The position numbers and the translations under genes were made by a program. From IMG/VR virus record IMGVR_UViG_3300020152_000002, positions 1 through 64,000 of that record: DNA of 64,000 bases; one strand, given 5' to 3'. Shown here piece by piece: positions 20,389 through 28,900 of the stretch (position 1 is its first letter; each line of letters begins with the position of its first letter). The stretch is from a virus. The notes under the pieces were generated by a model, which had not been told where the DNA came from, did not search any database, and was given only the letters and a program-made list of their open reading frames with translations.

Positions 20389-21876
20389 TCACAGGATGTC
20401 GAACTCGTCGTCCGTGGCCGATATGTCGGGCGTGATGCGGTAGCCACCGCCATCCTTCGTGAAGGGAGGCGTCGGCGCTTCGATGATCCGCTCGGCTTCG
20501 CGCGCCACGGCGATCATGCTGTCCAGCGCAGCGGTGGTCGCCTCGGTCTCGGCGGCAGGCTTGATACGCAGGGCCATGATGCGTCCTTGCGGACCCCCGT
20601 CGCGGACGACCGTCACGCCCGGCGCACGAGCAGCCTTCTCGGCTTCGCGCTGCACTTCGTCAGACGGCCCGACAGGGATATAGCCATCTTCGTCGGCGGC
20701 ATGGAGCATCACCGGATCAGGCGGCGATCCGGTCATCTCACCGAGAATGTCCCACGGGTTTGTGGCCGTCTGGTAGATCGGCGTCCCGTCAGGCCATGCG
20801 CCAAACGACAGGTCCAGATCGGAAGGACCGTCACTCCCGGCAGGCGGATCAGACGGCAACATGATGTCCACGCCAGAGCCCTCGTAGGCGCTGTCGTCCG
20901 GCGCGAGTTCTCCGGTCGCCTCGGCGCGGATCGCGGCAGCCAGCATCGGCACGACGTGCTTCCCGGCGTCGGTCAGCCGCCAGTCGAACTTGCCCTTGCG
21001 CCGGATCAGGCCGAGCACGGCGAGCAGGCGGCAATGCTTGGCCGGACGCATCACGTCGGACAGGCCGGAGGCGAGCCAGTCCTGAAACCGCTGCGGACAC
21101 AGACGCGCAAGGGTGAAGCCGTCGCGCTCGCCGGAGGCCAGAGCAGCGGTGACGGCGCGCATCTCGTAAGAGCACCGCCAGTAGTCCACGTCGCCGTCAC
21201 GCACGAGTTGGATCATGCCCGCACCGTCCTCGGTCATGTTGAACGGACGAAGCTGGCGACCGTCCATGTGCGACGACTTCCACGCGACGCCGGGAAGGAT
21301 CGTCGTCTGCGTTAGGAAGGCGCATAGCTCGGGAGCGTATTCGACCGTGACGCGCGTCTCCGGCGTGAAGGACCGTCCTCCCTGTTTGCGCTGGGCCAGT
21401 TCGTCGAAGGCGAGTAGCAGTTCATTGGAGGGAATGAGACCATCCCCCCTCGGCGCAGGGAGCAATACCCCCAGCGCCTCGAACATGATGCCCCCCGGCA
21501 GTTTTGCGATGGGGGGTGGTCCAGACAGCCAGTCGAGGATGCCCTGCGGTAGCTCGGCCAAGACATCGGCCAAGGGAAAGAGCGGGGGAAGCGTCCGGCG
21601 GTCGCGGCTCATCGGCGGGAGCGCCTTGGCCCACGCTAGGCCGAAGGCGTTCAGCTTGAAGGCGCTCTCCGGGGGCCTGCCGTCGTTTATGCGGGAATCG
21701 GCGAGCGTTATTTGCGCCATGTTCCAGTCGGTCAGCTTGGTCTCGGACTTGGCGAACTGGCTGGTGCTGGCGGGGAGCGGATGCGGGTATTCCGCGTAGC
21801 ACTCCGCAAGGGCCTGATGGGTGTAGCGGTCGAGCCGAACCCAAGCCCGGCCTTGCTTTATTTGGATCATGGACAT
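20389..21876 (-). CDS. hypothetical protein with C-terminal DDEFDIL, 495 aa
   Basis: First gene left of the putative origin. The N-terminal half has helices with a possible winged-helix region around residues 270-330 (HCRLLAVLGLIRRKGKFDWR, then LTDAGKHVVPML). Residues 340-400 are acidic and disordered and contain NPWDIL; the last residues are ATDDEFDIL. A replication or regulatory role is suggested by its position next to the repeat region but not by a recognised domain. Promoter at 21912-21940. Confidence 0.7.
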   Translation of the reverse strand: MSMIQIKQGRAWVRLDRYTHQALAECYAEYPHPLPASTSQFAKSETKLTDWNMAQITLADSRINDGRPPESAFKLNAFGLAWAKALPPMSRDRRTLPPLFPLADVLAELPQGILDWLSGPPPIAKLPGGIMFEALGVLLPAPRGDGLIPSNELLLAFDELAQRKQGGRSFTPETRVTVEYAPELCAFLTQTTILPGVAWKSSHMDGRQLRPFNMTEDGAGMIQLVRDGDVDYWRCSYEMRAVTAALASGERDGFTLARLCPQRFQDWLASGLSDVMRPAKHCRLLAVLGLIRRKGKFDWRLTDAGKHVVPMLAAAIRAEATGELAPDDSAYEGSGVDIMLPSDPPAGSDGPSDLDLSFGAWPDGTPIYQTATNPWDILGEMTGSPPDPVMLHAADEDGYIPVGPSDEVQREAEKAARAPGVTVVRDGGPQGRIMALRIKPAAETEATTAALDSMIAVAREAERIIEAPTPPFTKDGGGYRITPDISATDDEFDIL

Positions 21877-21911
21877 GGTGACGGGTCTCTGATGCGGGAT
21901 GTGAACCTTAT

Positions 21912-21940
21912 TTGTTACGCGGTGTCGGGGGCCGGGTCAA
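21912..21940 (-). promoter_or_regulatory. sigma-70-like promoter for 20389-21876
   Basis: TTGACC (21940-21935), 17-nt spacer, TAACAA (21917-21912) on the minus strand, about 36 nt before the ATG. Confidence 0.55.
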
Positions 21941-22250
21941 CAGAGGGGGTTTGGAGGGCGATTTCGGGGGTCGGAGATGGTGGTTATGCGTTTATTCTAG
22001 GGGTGCGCCAAGTCGGGCTTACAAGTAGCAGGTGACGACATTAATAGGTAGTATATGTGTGGGGTGAGATTAAATGATGCGCCCTGACATCGCTATCGGG
22101 GTTGACGGCAAAAAAGCCGATGGTGTGGTGGAAGTGTAAAAATAGTTCTCCCTATGGGACTATATTATTCTTCTCAATAAAATAAAATAAAGATAAAAGC
22201 TAAAACCGGCTGTCCTTGGCCGCAGATCGTGCTCGCAGTCCGCATCACGC

Positions 22251-22330
22251 CGGAAAACGCAGAAGGTGATGCAGAAAATCGGTTTCAAACCTGCGCGGAA
22301 AACGCAGAAGGTGAATCGGAAAATCGGTTT
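22251..22330 (+). repeat. tandem 35-bp direct repeats (45-bp period)
   Basis: 22251-22285 and 22296-22330 match at all but four clustered positions. Both begin CGGAAAACGCAGAAGGTGA and end GAAAATCGGTTT, and they differ at TGCA versus ATCG in the middle. A 61-codon ORF across them (22266-22451) is a by-product of the repeats. Confidence 0.8.
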
Positions 22331-22383
22331 GGAGGCTAGGATCGAACGGAAAATGGTAAATCTGAATAAAAGCGGGCATCACG

Positions 22384-22746
22384 TTAACCTTAACACGCCG
22401 TTAACCTTAAAAAGTAGGGTTAACGCAGCATTAAGGTTAATCGGCCGGTAAGGTTAATCACACAGTAACCTTAAAAGTTAAGGTTAATCGGGTAAGGCGA
22501 AGAAGTAAGGTTAATCGGCATAAAACTGTTAACCCTACTTCGCTGTTAAGGTTAATCAGGGGTTAACATTCACGCCTTGTTAACCTGAATAGTTAAGGTT
22601 AACCCGGTTAAGCAGTCCTGTTAACGCTACCAAACATGGTTAACCGCATTAACCACCGCCGTTAATCACGTCTGTTTACGCAATCTTAACGAATCTGTGC
22701 CCATGGGGAGCCACGGTTAATGTTCCATGAATGACCGGAACATTAA
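22384..22746. repeat. array of 27 TTAA sites with TAAGGTTAATC iterons
   Basis: Twenty-seven TTAA tetramers occur in 363 bp of an otherwise GC-rich genome. Six direct copies of TAAGGTTAA[TC]C (starting near 22430, 22448, 22477, 22506, 22545 and 22592) alternate with reversed copies TTAACCTTA. Spacings repeat at 6, 11, 13 and 17 nt. Three pairs have TTAA-N7-TTAA spacing (22390, 22420, 22552), the spacing of CtrA boxes. Iterons for an initiator or operator sites are possible roles. Confidence 0.75.
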
Positions 22747-22748
22747 CC
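22715..22748. repeat. perfect 12-bp inverted repeat with 10-nt loop
   Basis: GGTTAATGTTCC (22715-22726) and GGAACATTAACC (22737-22748) are exact reverse complements. Dyad operators and origin hairpins look like this. It forms the right edge of the TTAA array. Confidence 0.8.
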
Positions 22749-22945
22749 AGTCCGCAGAACGCAGCCGGAACAAAACGTAGACGTTTGCGAACTCCGATTT
22801 TTTCGACCCGTGACACCGGAGACGGCAGAAAACCGCTCCACGGGCTTAAAAACGGCCTTTCTGGGCATTCTCATTATGGGACACCTTTTCGGCGTCCTTT
22901 TTACGCCGTCCGCATCAAAAAGCGGGTTTTCGCAGTCCGCATTAG

Positions 22946-22974
22946 TTGACTGTTAAGCGGCGCGCGCGTAGAAC
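22946..22974 (+). promoter_or_regulatory. sigma-70-like promoter for the rightward 23.1-26.2 kb operon
   Basis: TTGACT (22946-22951), 17-nt spacer, TAGAAC (22969-22974) on the plus strand. The first gene begins at 23113, leaving a leader of about 130 nt. Confidence 0.6.
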
Positions 22975-23112
22975 CGTCATGTTAGGTCTTTGACATCGTT
23001 TATCCCTCCCGCGTCCGGCTAGTCCGGCGCGGCTTTGTGCATCCCTTCGCGGGAACTGACACAGACTAACCGGCCGCAATGACGCGGCCTGATCATCTAG
23101 GGAAACACACAG

Positions 23113-23292
23113 ATGCAACACCGCCTTTTGACCGAAACCGCGACGTTCAAGCCGACTGCGGCCTTTGAACCGCTCGCCAAGCTCGCCAGCGTTCAACGCG
23201 ACAACCGCCGCGAACGCCTCTCGACTGTCGCCCTTGCGGCCGTCGCCTTCATCGCCGCTTTCGCGGCCGTCTACATCGCCACGGGGTTCTAA
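23113..23292 (+). CDS. small membrane protein, 59 aa
   Basis: MQHRLLTETATFKPTAAF at the start, a basic stretch (QRDNRRERL) and a C-terminal transmembrane helix (ALAAVAFIAAFAAVYIA). First gene of the rightward early-type operon; function unknown. Ribosome site TAGGGAAAC precedes the ATG by about 10 nt. Confidence 0.65.
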   Translation: MQHRLLTETATFKPTAAFEPLAKLASVQRDNRRERLSTVALAAVAFIAAFAAVYIATGF

Positions 23293-26046: not shown

Positions 26047-26240
26047 ACGTCTGTGACAACGCCAGACGCGACGCGCATCTAATGGCGAGGCGGGAACGTG
26101 ACCGCCTCGCCATGCAAGCGACGCTTAAGCAGGCAAGGGCGGCCGTCCTAAGCAGCCGTCAGAACGCAGGGGTTAAGGGCGGGTTAATCGGCCTAGCCGT
26201 TGCGGTCATAACGTGGCCTTTTAGTCACATGAAGCAGTAA
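26043..26240 (+). CDS. small membrane protein, TTG start likely, 65 aa
   Basis: The frame begins with TTG at 26043, overlapping the stop of the previous gene as TTGA, with GAAGG about 10 nt upstream. An ATG at 26082 is the alternative. The N-terminal two thirds are basic; the C-terminus has one transmembrane helix (GGLIGLAVAVITWPF). Unknown function. Confidence 0.5.
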   Translation: MNVCDNARRDAHLMARRERDRLAMQATLKQARAAVLSSRQNAGVKGGLIGLAVAVITWPFSHMKQ

Positions 26241-26672: not shown

Positions 26673-27371
26673 ATGTCCGCTCTCGCCCTCCAATCCGACG
26701 ACTACATGCGCGTCGAACCGCTCGGCCCCGCCGAGAAGGCGGAGATCGTAGACGCGCTCTACAAGCACTTCTCGATGCAGAAGGTCGTCGAAGCCACAGG
26801 CTACGATCTGCGGCGGATTATGACCGCCATCGACGAAGACCCGGAGTTCTCGAACGCCATGGCGCTCGCCGAACGGCACCTGTCGGTGATCGGTGAGGAC
26901 GAGCTTAAGCGCCGCGCGATCCACGGGGTCGATAGCGTCGTGGTCGCCAACGGCCGCGTCGTCTATCAGGTCGTGGACGGCGTTCGCCGCCCGATGGTCG
27001 AGACCAAATACAGCGACGCGCTGCTCAAGACCTATCTCGAAGCCAACCGGCGCGACAAGTTCGGTGCCAAGCTCGAAGTGACCACCACGCACAAGGGCGT
27101 CATCGCCCTGCCTGCGTTCTCGCCCGAGATGATGCAGCTTCTCTTGGCCGATGCCAGAGGGGAGCGCGTCGAACTGATCGTGGATCAGGAGATGGACGCC
27201 GAGGACAAGCCGGAAGTGATCGACGCCGAATACAGCGTCGTCGGGGAAGCCGCCAACACGGACGCCGAGTTCGAGCGCGCCGATGATGAGACGATCCGTC
27301 AGCGCGTCCGGGAGATGACCCGCGAGACGGTCCCGGAGTCGGCCACGGAAGACGGCTTCGACATCCTGTGA
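26673..27371 (+). CDS. terS: terminase small subunit, 232 aa
   Basis: Directly upstream of the large terminase gene and coupled to it (GTGA). Residues about 20-60 form a helix-turn-helix-like element (IVDALYKHFSMQKVVEATGY, then DLRRIMTAIDEDPEFSNAMA), as in small terminases that bind packaging sites. The rest is helical with an acidic tail ending ATEDGFDIL, one of the recurring C-terminal motifs. ATG 26673 is preferred over an upstream TTG at 26619. Identification rests on position and the N-terminal fold. Confidence 0.75.
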   Translation: MSALALQSDDYMRVEPLGPAEKAEIVDALYKHFSMQKVVEATGYDLRRIMTAIDEDPEFSNAMALAERHLSVIGEDELKRRAIHGVDSVVVANGRVVYQVVDGVRRPMVETKYSDALLKTYLEANRRDKFGAKLEVTTTHKGVIALPAFSPEMMQLLLADARGERVELIVDQEMDAEDKPEVIDAEYSVVGEAANTDAEFERADDETIRQRVREMTRETVPESATEDGFDIL

Positions 27372-28900
27372 AAATCCGGGTCTCGCCAGAGCTATACGCC
27401 GCCTATCAGGCTGCGAAGAAGGCGTTCGACAACGCCGCGTGGCGTCCAAACAGCGTCGCCCAGTGCCTCGCCATCAACTGTCAGGAGCCCGAGCTACTGC
27501 TTGAGGGCAACCGAGGCGGCGGCAAGACGATCACGCTGCTGATGACCTACGCCGTCTACGTCGATAAGGGGTTCGGCGCGGCGTGGCGCGGGATCATCTT
27601 CCGTAACACCTACAAGGCGCTGGAAGACATCATCAACCAGTCCAAAAAAGTGTTCTGGCGCATCTGGCCTGACGCGACCTTCAACGAGACGGAGCGTCTG
27701 TGGCGCTTCCCGAACGGTGAAAGCCTCAAGTTCTCGCAGTTCGCAACTCCCGACGACTATAACACATGGCACGGTCAGGAGTTTCCCTTCATCGGATGGG
27801 AAGAACTGACGAACTATCCGACCGACGCCTGCTATCGGTCGATGATGTCGTGTAACCGCTCTAGCTCGCCGGGCATTCCGAAGATCATCCGCGCGACGAC
27901 CAACCCGTCCGGTCCCGGCAAGCGGTGGGTGAAGAACCGCTGGCAACTGCCGACCATGCGGAACCAGTGTCTCGTCGATCTCAAGGACGAGGACGGTTAC
28001 GAAGTCCCGAACAGGATGTCTCTGCACTTCAAGTTCGAGGACAACCTTGATCTGGTGCGCGTGGACCCGAAATACATGTCGCGGGTGCGGCAGTCGGCGG
28101 CGAACGCCGAAATCCGCAAGGCGTGGGTGGAAGGCGACTGGAACTCGAAGTCGGGCGGGTTCTTCGACGAGTGCTTCGAGCCGTCGATCCACATGATCCC
28201 GAAGTTCGTCATCCCGGAGGGCTGGAAGCTGTTCCGGGCTCTCGACTGGGGCTACAACGCGCCCTACAGCTACGGCGTCTACGCCGAGTGCCCGGAAACC
28301 ACCATCGTCGATCTCGAACCCGAGCGGAAGATCATCAACGGCGTCGCGCACGACATCCCGCGCCAGATGTTGTTCATCAGGGGCGACATCGTGCGGGTGT
28401 TCGAGGACTACGGCTGGGTGCCGACCAGTGGTCAGAACAAAGGCGTCCGGTTGTCACCGGCAGCGGCGGCCGAACGGTTCAAGATGCTCGAAATGAAGTG
28501 GGGCATCCATAAGCTGATCAAGGGCGGCGTCGCCGGGGTCGATCTCTGGAACACGCAGACCGACGACAACGCCCCGATCCACCAGTTCGAGCTACGCGAT
28601 CTCGACATGGACAAGGCAGACGTGAGCCGGGGTAGCCGGAAAGGCGGCCTGATGACGCTCGTCTCCTACCTAGAGAACGCGGTGCCCAAGGCAGTAGACG
28701 GGATGCGTCTTCCGAGGGAGAACCCGGCGCTGTTCTTCATCGAAGCCAACAACGCGCAGGCTCTACGCATCCTCTCCGAGATCACACCCGACCCGGAGAA
28801 CCCCGATGACTTCCACAAGGACGCGGAAGACCATATCATCGACGAAATCCGCTACATTCTGTCCCGGCGGGACCAGTCGGTCAGGCAGCATCACGCCTGA
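27368..28900 (+). CDS. terL: terminase large subunit, 510 aa
   Basis: ATPase domain: Walker A GNRGGGKT (47-54), Walker B FIGWEE (141-146) and the coupling motif ATTNPSGPGKRW (176-187). Nuclease domain: ALDWG with D293, GVDLWNTQTDD with D392, and EDHIIDEIRY (487-496) as the third acidic site. This is the packaging motor that cuts concatemers and pumps DNA into the prohead. It starts with GTG overlapping the terS stop. Confidence 0.95.
   Translation: MKIRVSPELYAAYQAAKKAFDNAAWRPNSVAQCLAINCQEPELLLEGNRGGGKTITLLMTYAVYVDKGFGAAWRGIIFRNTYKALEDIINQSKKVFWRIWPDATFNETERLWRFPNGESLKFSQFATPDDYNTWHGQEFPFIGWEELTNYPTDACYRSMMSCNRSSSPGIPKIIRATTNPSGPGKRWVKNRWQLPTMRNQCLVDLKDEDGYEVPNRMSLHFKFEDNLDLVRVDPKYMSRVRQSAANAEIRKAWVEGDWNSKSGGFFDECFEPSIHMIPKFVIPEGWKLFRALDWGYNAPYSYGVYAECPETTIVDLEPERKIINGVAHDIPRQMLFIRGDIVRVFEDYGWVPTSGQNKGVRLSPAAAAERFKMLEMKWGIHKLIKGGVAGVDLWNTQTDDNAPIHQFELRDLDMDKADVSRGSRKGGLMTLVSYLENAVPKAVDGMRLPRENPALFFIEANNAQALRILSEITPDPENPDDFHKDAEDHIIDEIRYILSRRDQSVRQHHA

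Follow-up and report, generated by a model that had tools for sequence, protein, structure and literature searches.

We asked what reads a dense array of TTAA tetramers that lies between two divergent gene blocks of a phage genome. The window, i.e. the whole stretch of DNA analysed, comprises 64,000 nucleotides (positions 1 to 64,000 of IMG/VR record IMGVR_UViG_3300020152_000002). An earlier note made from its letters had proposed either an initiator-binding origin or a site that titrates the host cell-cycle regulator CtrA or is controlled by it. We give a probability of roughly 0.8 to the reading of the array, part of the divergent control region in a Delta-like phage, as a putative operator for phosphorylated host CtrA.

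The TTAA array and its control region

The array occupies positions 22384..22746. These 363 bp contain exactly 27 TTAA, as the earlier note had counted, while 5000 dinucleotide shuffles of the same stretch gave a mean of only 5.4 (sd 1.9) and a maximum of 13. The complete virus record (87,606 bases) holds 51 TTAA and four TTAA-N7-TTAA dyads; 27 of the former and three of the latter lie in the array, and thus more than half of the record's TTAA fall in 0.4% of its length. The GC content is 42% across the array vs about 63% for the genome. As in elements of the LPEG kind, TTAA/CtrA sites were strongly concentrated in one gap, this gap was intergenic and lay between divergent gene blocks, and the canonical TTAA-N7-TTAA was found in three perfect copies with further sites carrying one mismatch (CtrA sites were tallied by consensus throughout). 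All six direct TAAGGTTAA[TC]C copies reported previously were located (starts at 22432, 22449, 22479, 22506, 22547 and 22594). Inverted copies are present as well, at 22384 and 22401 with a degenerate one near 22467, but they are fewer and lie mostly at the left end of the array, so the alternation of direct and inverted copies that had been described is only partial.

The intergenic control region (21877..23112, 1,236 bp) contains 31 TTAA, and its position between the gene blocks is common to the relatives. The first leftward gene (20389..21876, minus strand) is an ortholog of DELTA_119 (43% identity), and its product had no Pfam or PHROG match. The rightward block begins at 23113 with a gene for 59 aa (23113..23292, plus strand), the positional counterpart of DELTA_1 with similarity in the first 12 residues only, and runs on to the terminase subunits (large subunit, the landmark of this block, at 27368..28900, plus strand) and the major head protein. 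Left of the array lies an A+T-rich block (AATAAAATAAAATAAAG..., 22160..22215) that is conserved in the alignment, and the A+T maximum of the genome falls inside the 21877-23112 gap. Also on the left is a tandem repeat of two 45-bp copies that are 80% alike (22251..22340); its core, GGTGAAGGTGA, is repeated in the aligned relatives too, and it may be a separate regulatory element. On the right, a block that aligned as conserved in all seven phages (22735..22870) is a candidate rightward promoter region. Searches within the gap found no sigma-70 promoters (block 22735..22870 included) and no intrinsic terminators, and a search for tRNA genes found none. Three more TTAA, with one N7 dyad among them (at 26173), form a small A+T-rich intergenic group at 26125-26187, upstream of the terminase small subunit, which is a possible further CtrA site.

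Conservation in related phages

We then compared the array among related phages. A blastn search of the gap against phages returned five Brevundimonas phages (Delta, Fanboy, BabaJaga, Poludnitsa and Leszy) and no others. Identity of the terminase large subunit is 88% to those of the five phages and 91% to that of IMG/VR contig L013, which was found by a terminase protein search of viral contigs and carries the array closest to the present one; the left flanking protein, used as a query against the viral contigs, found no relative. Judging from the relatives, which infect Brevundimonas, the host probably belongs to Brevundimonas or elsewhere in the Caulobacterales. An orthologous array was present in all six relatives, rather than absent or scrambled, the outcomes that the earlier note had set against its proposal. 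Each of the seven aligned gaps has 26 to 34 TTAA, and conserved blocks flank the array on both sides. The TTAA bases agreed with the relatives at 89%, the remaining array bases at 70%. One unit is doubled in Fanboy, and the Delta group lacks units near 22530-22580. Such turnover with the motif kept is what would be expected of binding sites.

For Delta, the sections of Mascolo et al. (2022, PMC9437464) that we consulted give 30 TTAA in the gap, 12 of them in six canonical CtrA dyads, and our recount of Delta returned the same figures (30 TTAA, six N7 dyads). According to these sections, phosphorylated C. crescentus CtrA shifted an 81-bp Delta probe from the array edge, with three sites and two half-sites, in EMSA. 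The activity of a leftward Delta promoter fragment went up when CtrA was impaired, indicating that CtrA represses leftward transcription in Delta, and the model put forward is one of "lytic deferment". CtrA~P binding together with an effect on transcription is described there for Delta, phiCbK and Cp1R7A-A1 (PMC9437464). The idea of a host-CtrA control site is thus strongly supported by the Delta ortholog, which binds CtrA~P in EMSA and whose leftward promoter is repressed by CtrA. Judged by its sequence, the present array is a further example of this already published device.

The regulated gene in the same sections of that account is DELTA_120, a 68-codon ORF left of the array (PMC9437464). 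We set DELTA_120 aside as the regulated gene, as it is without a coding signature. The matching frame (22163..22378, minus strand) is open here, but none of ATG, GTG and TTG stands where it should begin; its sole start is an internal TTG, which leaves 42 codons. Among four Delta-group phages, the variable columns of DELTA_120 were spread over codon positions 1, 2 and 3 as 10:12:13, and two neighbouring genes given the same treatment yielded 8:3:15 and 8:5:18. The Fanboy copy of the ORF shifts frame close to its end, and overlap with the tandem 45-bp repeat accounts for the residues that recur in the frame. DELTA_120 is therefore probably not protein-coding, and the published reporter data remain valid as a readout of leftward promoter activity.

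Spacing of the TTAA sites

We also asked which spacings set the array apart. Adjacent TTAA are 6 (six times), 11 (three times), 13 (four times) or 17 nt (four times) apart in 17 of the 26 gaps. When 27 non-overlapping tetramers were placed at random, spacing 17 (P<0.001) and spacing 6 (P about 0.02) were enriched and spacing 13 weakly so (P about 0.04), several spacings having been tested. Spacing 11, that of the CtrA N7 site, showed no excess over the TTAA density (3 pairs vs 1.95 expected, P=0.31). Thus the near-quantised spacing that had been noticed holds for 6 and 17, weakly for 13, and does not extend to 11. The three TTAA-N7-TTAA pairs are real, matching the consensus at 22390..22404, 22420..22434 (kept in all seven aligned gaps) and 22552..22566, though their number is what the density gives. 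What is significant in the array is the doublet TTAA-SS-TTAA (6 bp) and the 17-bp spacing, rather than the canonical 11 bp.

The doublet is the dominant unit of the array. There are six TTAA-N2-TTAA in the whole record, every one inside the array, including a doublet-N7-doublet composite, TTAACCTTAA-N7-TTAACCTTAA (22384..22410), and plus-strand TTAAGGTTAA doublets at 22431..22440, 22478..22487, 22546..22555 and 22593..22602, the second and fourth of which are kept in all seven aligned gaps. Per gap there are 5 to 10 TTAA-N2-TTAA, which in every one of the seven exceeds random placement (P 0.03 or less each); as the genomes are related, these tests are non-independent. Mascolo et al. (2022, PMC9437464) count N7 dyads and half-sites, and the 6-bp doublet is not discussed in the sections consulted.

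Doublet arrays also occur in other phages. Viral contigs were searched with the pattern TTAASSTTAA-N7-TTAASSTTAA, which itself contains doublets. It matched 36 contigs, and in 34 of them the GC content of the match was 50% or more; 29 of the 34 had at least 12 TTAA in 360 bp, and removal of similar arrays left 19 distinct GC-rich loci. With the pairs that had served for selection set aside, the 19 arrays still showed the 6-bp spacing 64 times vs 26 expected (z=7.5), and spacings of 27 bp (z=8.9), 34 bp (z=5.4) and 21 bp (z=3.8) were enriched as well. One of the arrays lies within the terminal repeat of Caulobacter phage CcrBL9, a phage that appears in the list of Mascolo et al. (2022, PMC9437464) as far as consulted, and two further contigs that were examined are distantly similar to phages of Erythrobacter, Sphingobium, Caulobacter and Brevundimonas. 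In GC-rich DNA of the IMG/VR contigs L025, L031, L035, L036, L049, L054, L059 and L066, TTAACCTTAA doublets form very dense arrays (16-27 TTAA/360 bp); these contigs are outside the 2022 survey, as far as its text was consulted, and some are without close relatives in the phage collection.

In bacterial genomes, the composite had 53 matches. Most lie in A+T-rich DNA and resemble chance, and only the five in DNA of more than 60% GC were taken as signal. Four of these five are from Methylopilaceae (Methylopila, Hansschlegelia; L173, L176, L182 and L205), with the composite TTAACCTTAA-N7-TTAAGGTTAA. Three of the four end 55-56 bp upstream of a flagellin start; the fourth locus (L173) ends before the gene, and the neighbouring flagellin is in the same order. 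In Sinorhizobium, CtrA directly targets flagellin genes (PMC6180460), and therefore the position of the composite before such genes lends independent support to its reading as a CtrA-type operator. The composite, otherwise very rare in the class, was rejected as a common chromosomal CtrA site: its sole carrier among 385 genomes of that class was the centre genome, which had been selected for this very feature. Tentatively, and at a little under even odds, we propose that in many phage CtrA arrays the working unit is the doublet TTAA-SS-TTAA rather than TTAA-N7-TTAA, often as doublet-N7-doublet at 21 or 27 bp, which phages may have refined so that binding is cooperative and steep, or so that CtrA competes with a second protein, and that DELTA_120 is no gene.

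What would read the array

Points counted against the CtrA operator are the N7 spacing, which stays at the density level, the dominant 6-bp spacing, which is unlike a textbook CtrA site, and the published regulated ORF, which is probably no gene. Could a second protein, of host or phage, then read the doublets, competing with CtrA or aiding it, with only the N7 dyads left as CtrA sites? The 6-bp spacing corresponds to half a helical turn, unlike the N7 site, the doublet excess in the 19 distinct arrays lies outside the selection pairs, and Delta has proteins annotated as helix-turn-helix. We nevertheless regard such a reader as unlikely: TTAACC, present in the doublet, also opens the ungapped CtrA motif TTAACCAT (PMC6180460), in Methylopilaceae the N7 core before flagellin genes has doublets on both sides, and the recurrence of doublets in unlike phages speaks against a phage-encoded version.

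A replication origin seems very improbable. There the repeats would serve an initiator as iterons, melting would occur in the A+T-rich block next to them, and CtrA might also block, as at the Caulobacter chromosome origin. Such an origin agrees with the direct and inverted repeats, with the conserved A+T-rich block at their side and with the A+T maximum there. No DnaA box was found in the gap; the skew extrema, which gene direction confounds, differ between Delta and the present record, and neither is at the array; the flanking genes had no match to a known replication or initiator family, and the replication genes of Delta are far off. The same doublet arrays, moreover, occur in other phage groups and upstream of host flagellin genes. 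The iteron-type origin of the earlier note was thus left without positive support, as the gap and its flanking genes showed no initiator gene beside the iterons with DnaA boxes, and the array no skew extremum common to Delta and the record. That the array mainly titrates host CtrA and so disturbs the host cell cycle is, in our judgement, scarcely probable at all. Its half-sites far exceed promoter needs, and their copy number climbs as the phage replicates. However, the sites sit in a divergent promoter gap flanked by conserved blocks, and in the sections consulted the Delta ortholog acts in cis on a reporter (PMC9437464).

Under the preferred reading, a CtrA operator, many CtrA molecules would cooperatively fill the TTAA half-sites in the infected swarmer cell of a CtrA-bearing host, where CtrA is high, and this would hold down the leftward promoter and perhaps the rightward one as well. 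Clearance of CtrA at the swarmer-to-stalked transition would release the promoter, so that phage expression would track the host cell cycle, and the large number of sites would make the switch steep. The comparison shows that related phages of one group maintain an array of sites for a regulator of the host cell cycle, and the spacing grammar that emerges is concrete (doublet, N7, 21/27 bp). If DELTA_120 is no gene, the leftward operon and a leader RNA, should there be one, are where the hunt for CtrA-controlled transcripts restarts.

Finally, we compared the array with known systems. The Methylopilaceae flagellin upstream regions share the doublet-N7-doublet composite; they have a single composite instead of an array, their doublets are reversed (CC first, GG second), and their CtrA sites are putative. 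In phiCbK and CcrBL9, TTAA sites are likewise concentrated intergenically, and CcrBL9 also has doublet composites. In contrast to the present array, those sites belong to phages of much greater size and are placed in their direct terminal repeats; phiCbK has just two doublets in its first 12 kb, and its tested promoters were, in the sections consulted, activated and not repressed (PMC9437464). The pilA promoter of Caulobacter crescentus resembles the array in its several CtrA sites, including repressing upstream sites and non-canonical spacing, but it has four sites only, and 6-bp doublets are unmentioned in the part of the source consulted (PMC11264516). The Delta array differs in having six perfect N7 dyads vs three here, in units gained and lost, and in its DELTA_120 frame, which is without a start codon in the present phage. 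It shares with the present array the same site between the DELTA_119 and DELTA_1 counterparts, the same motif, the conserved flanking blocks and nearly the same number of TTAA in the gap (30 in Delta vs 31 here).
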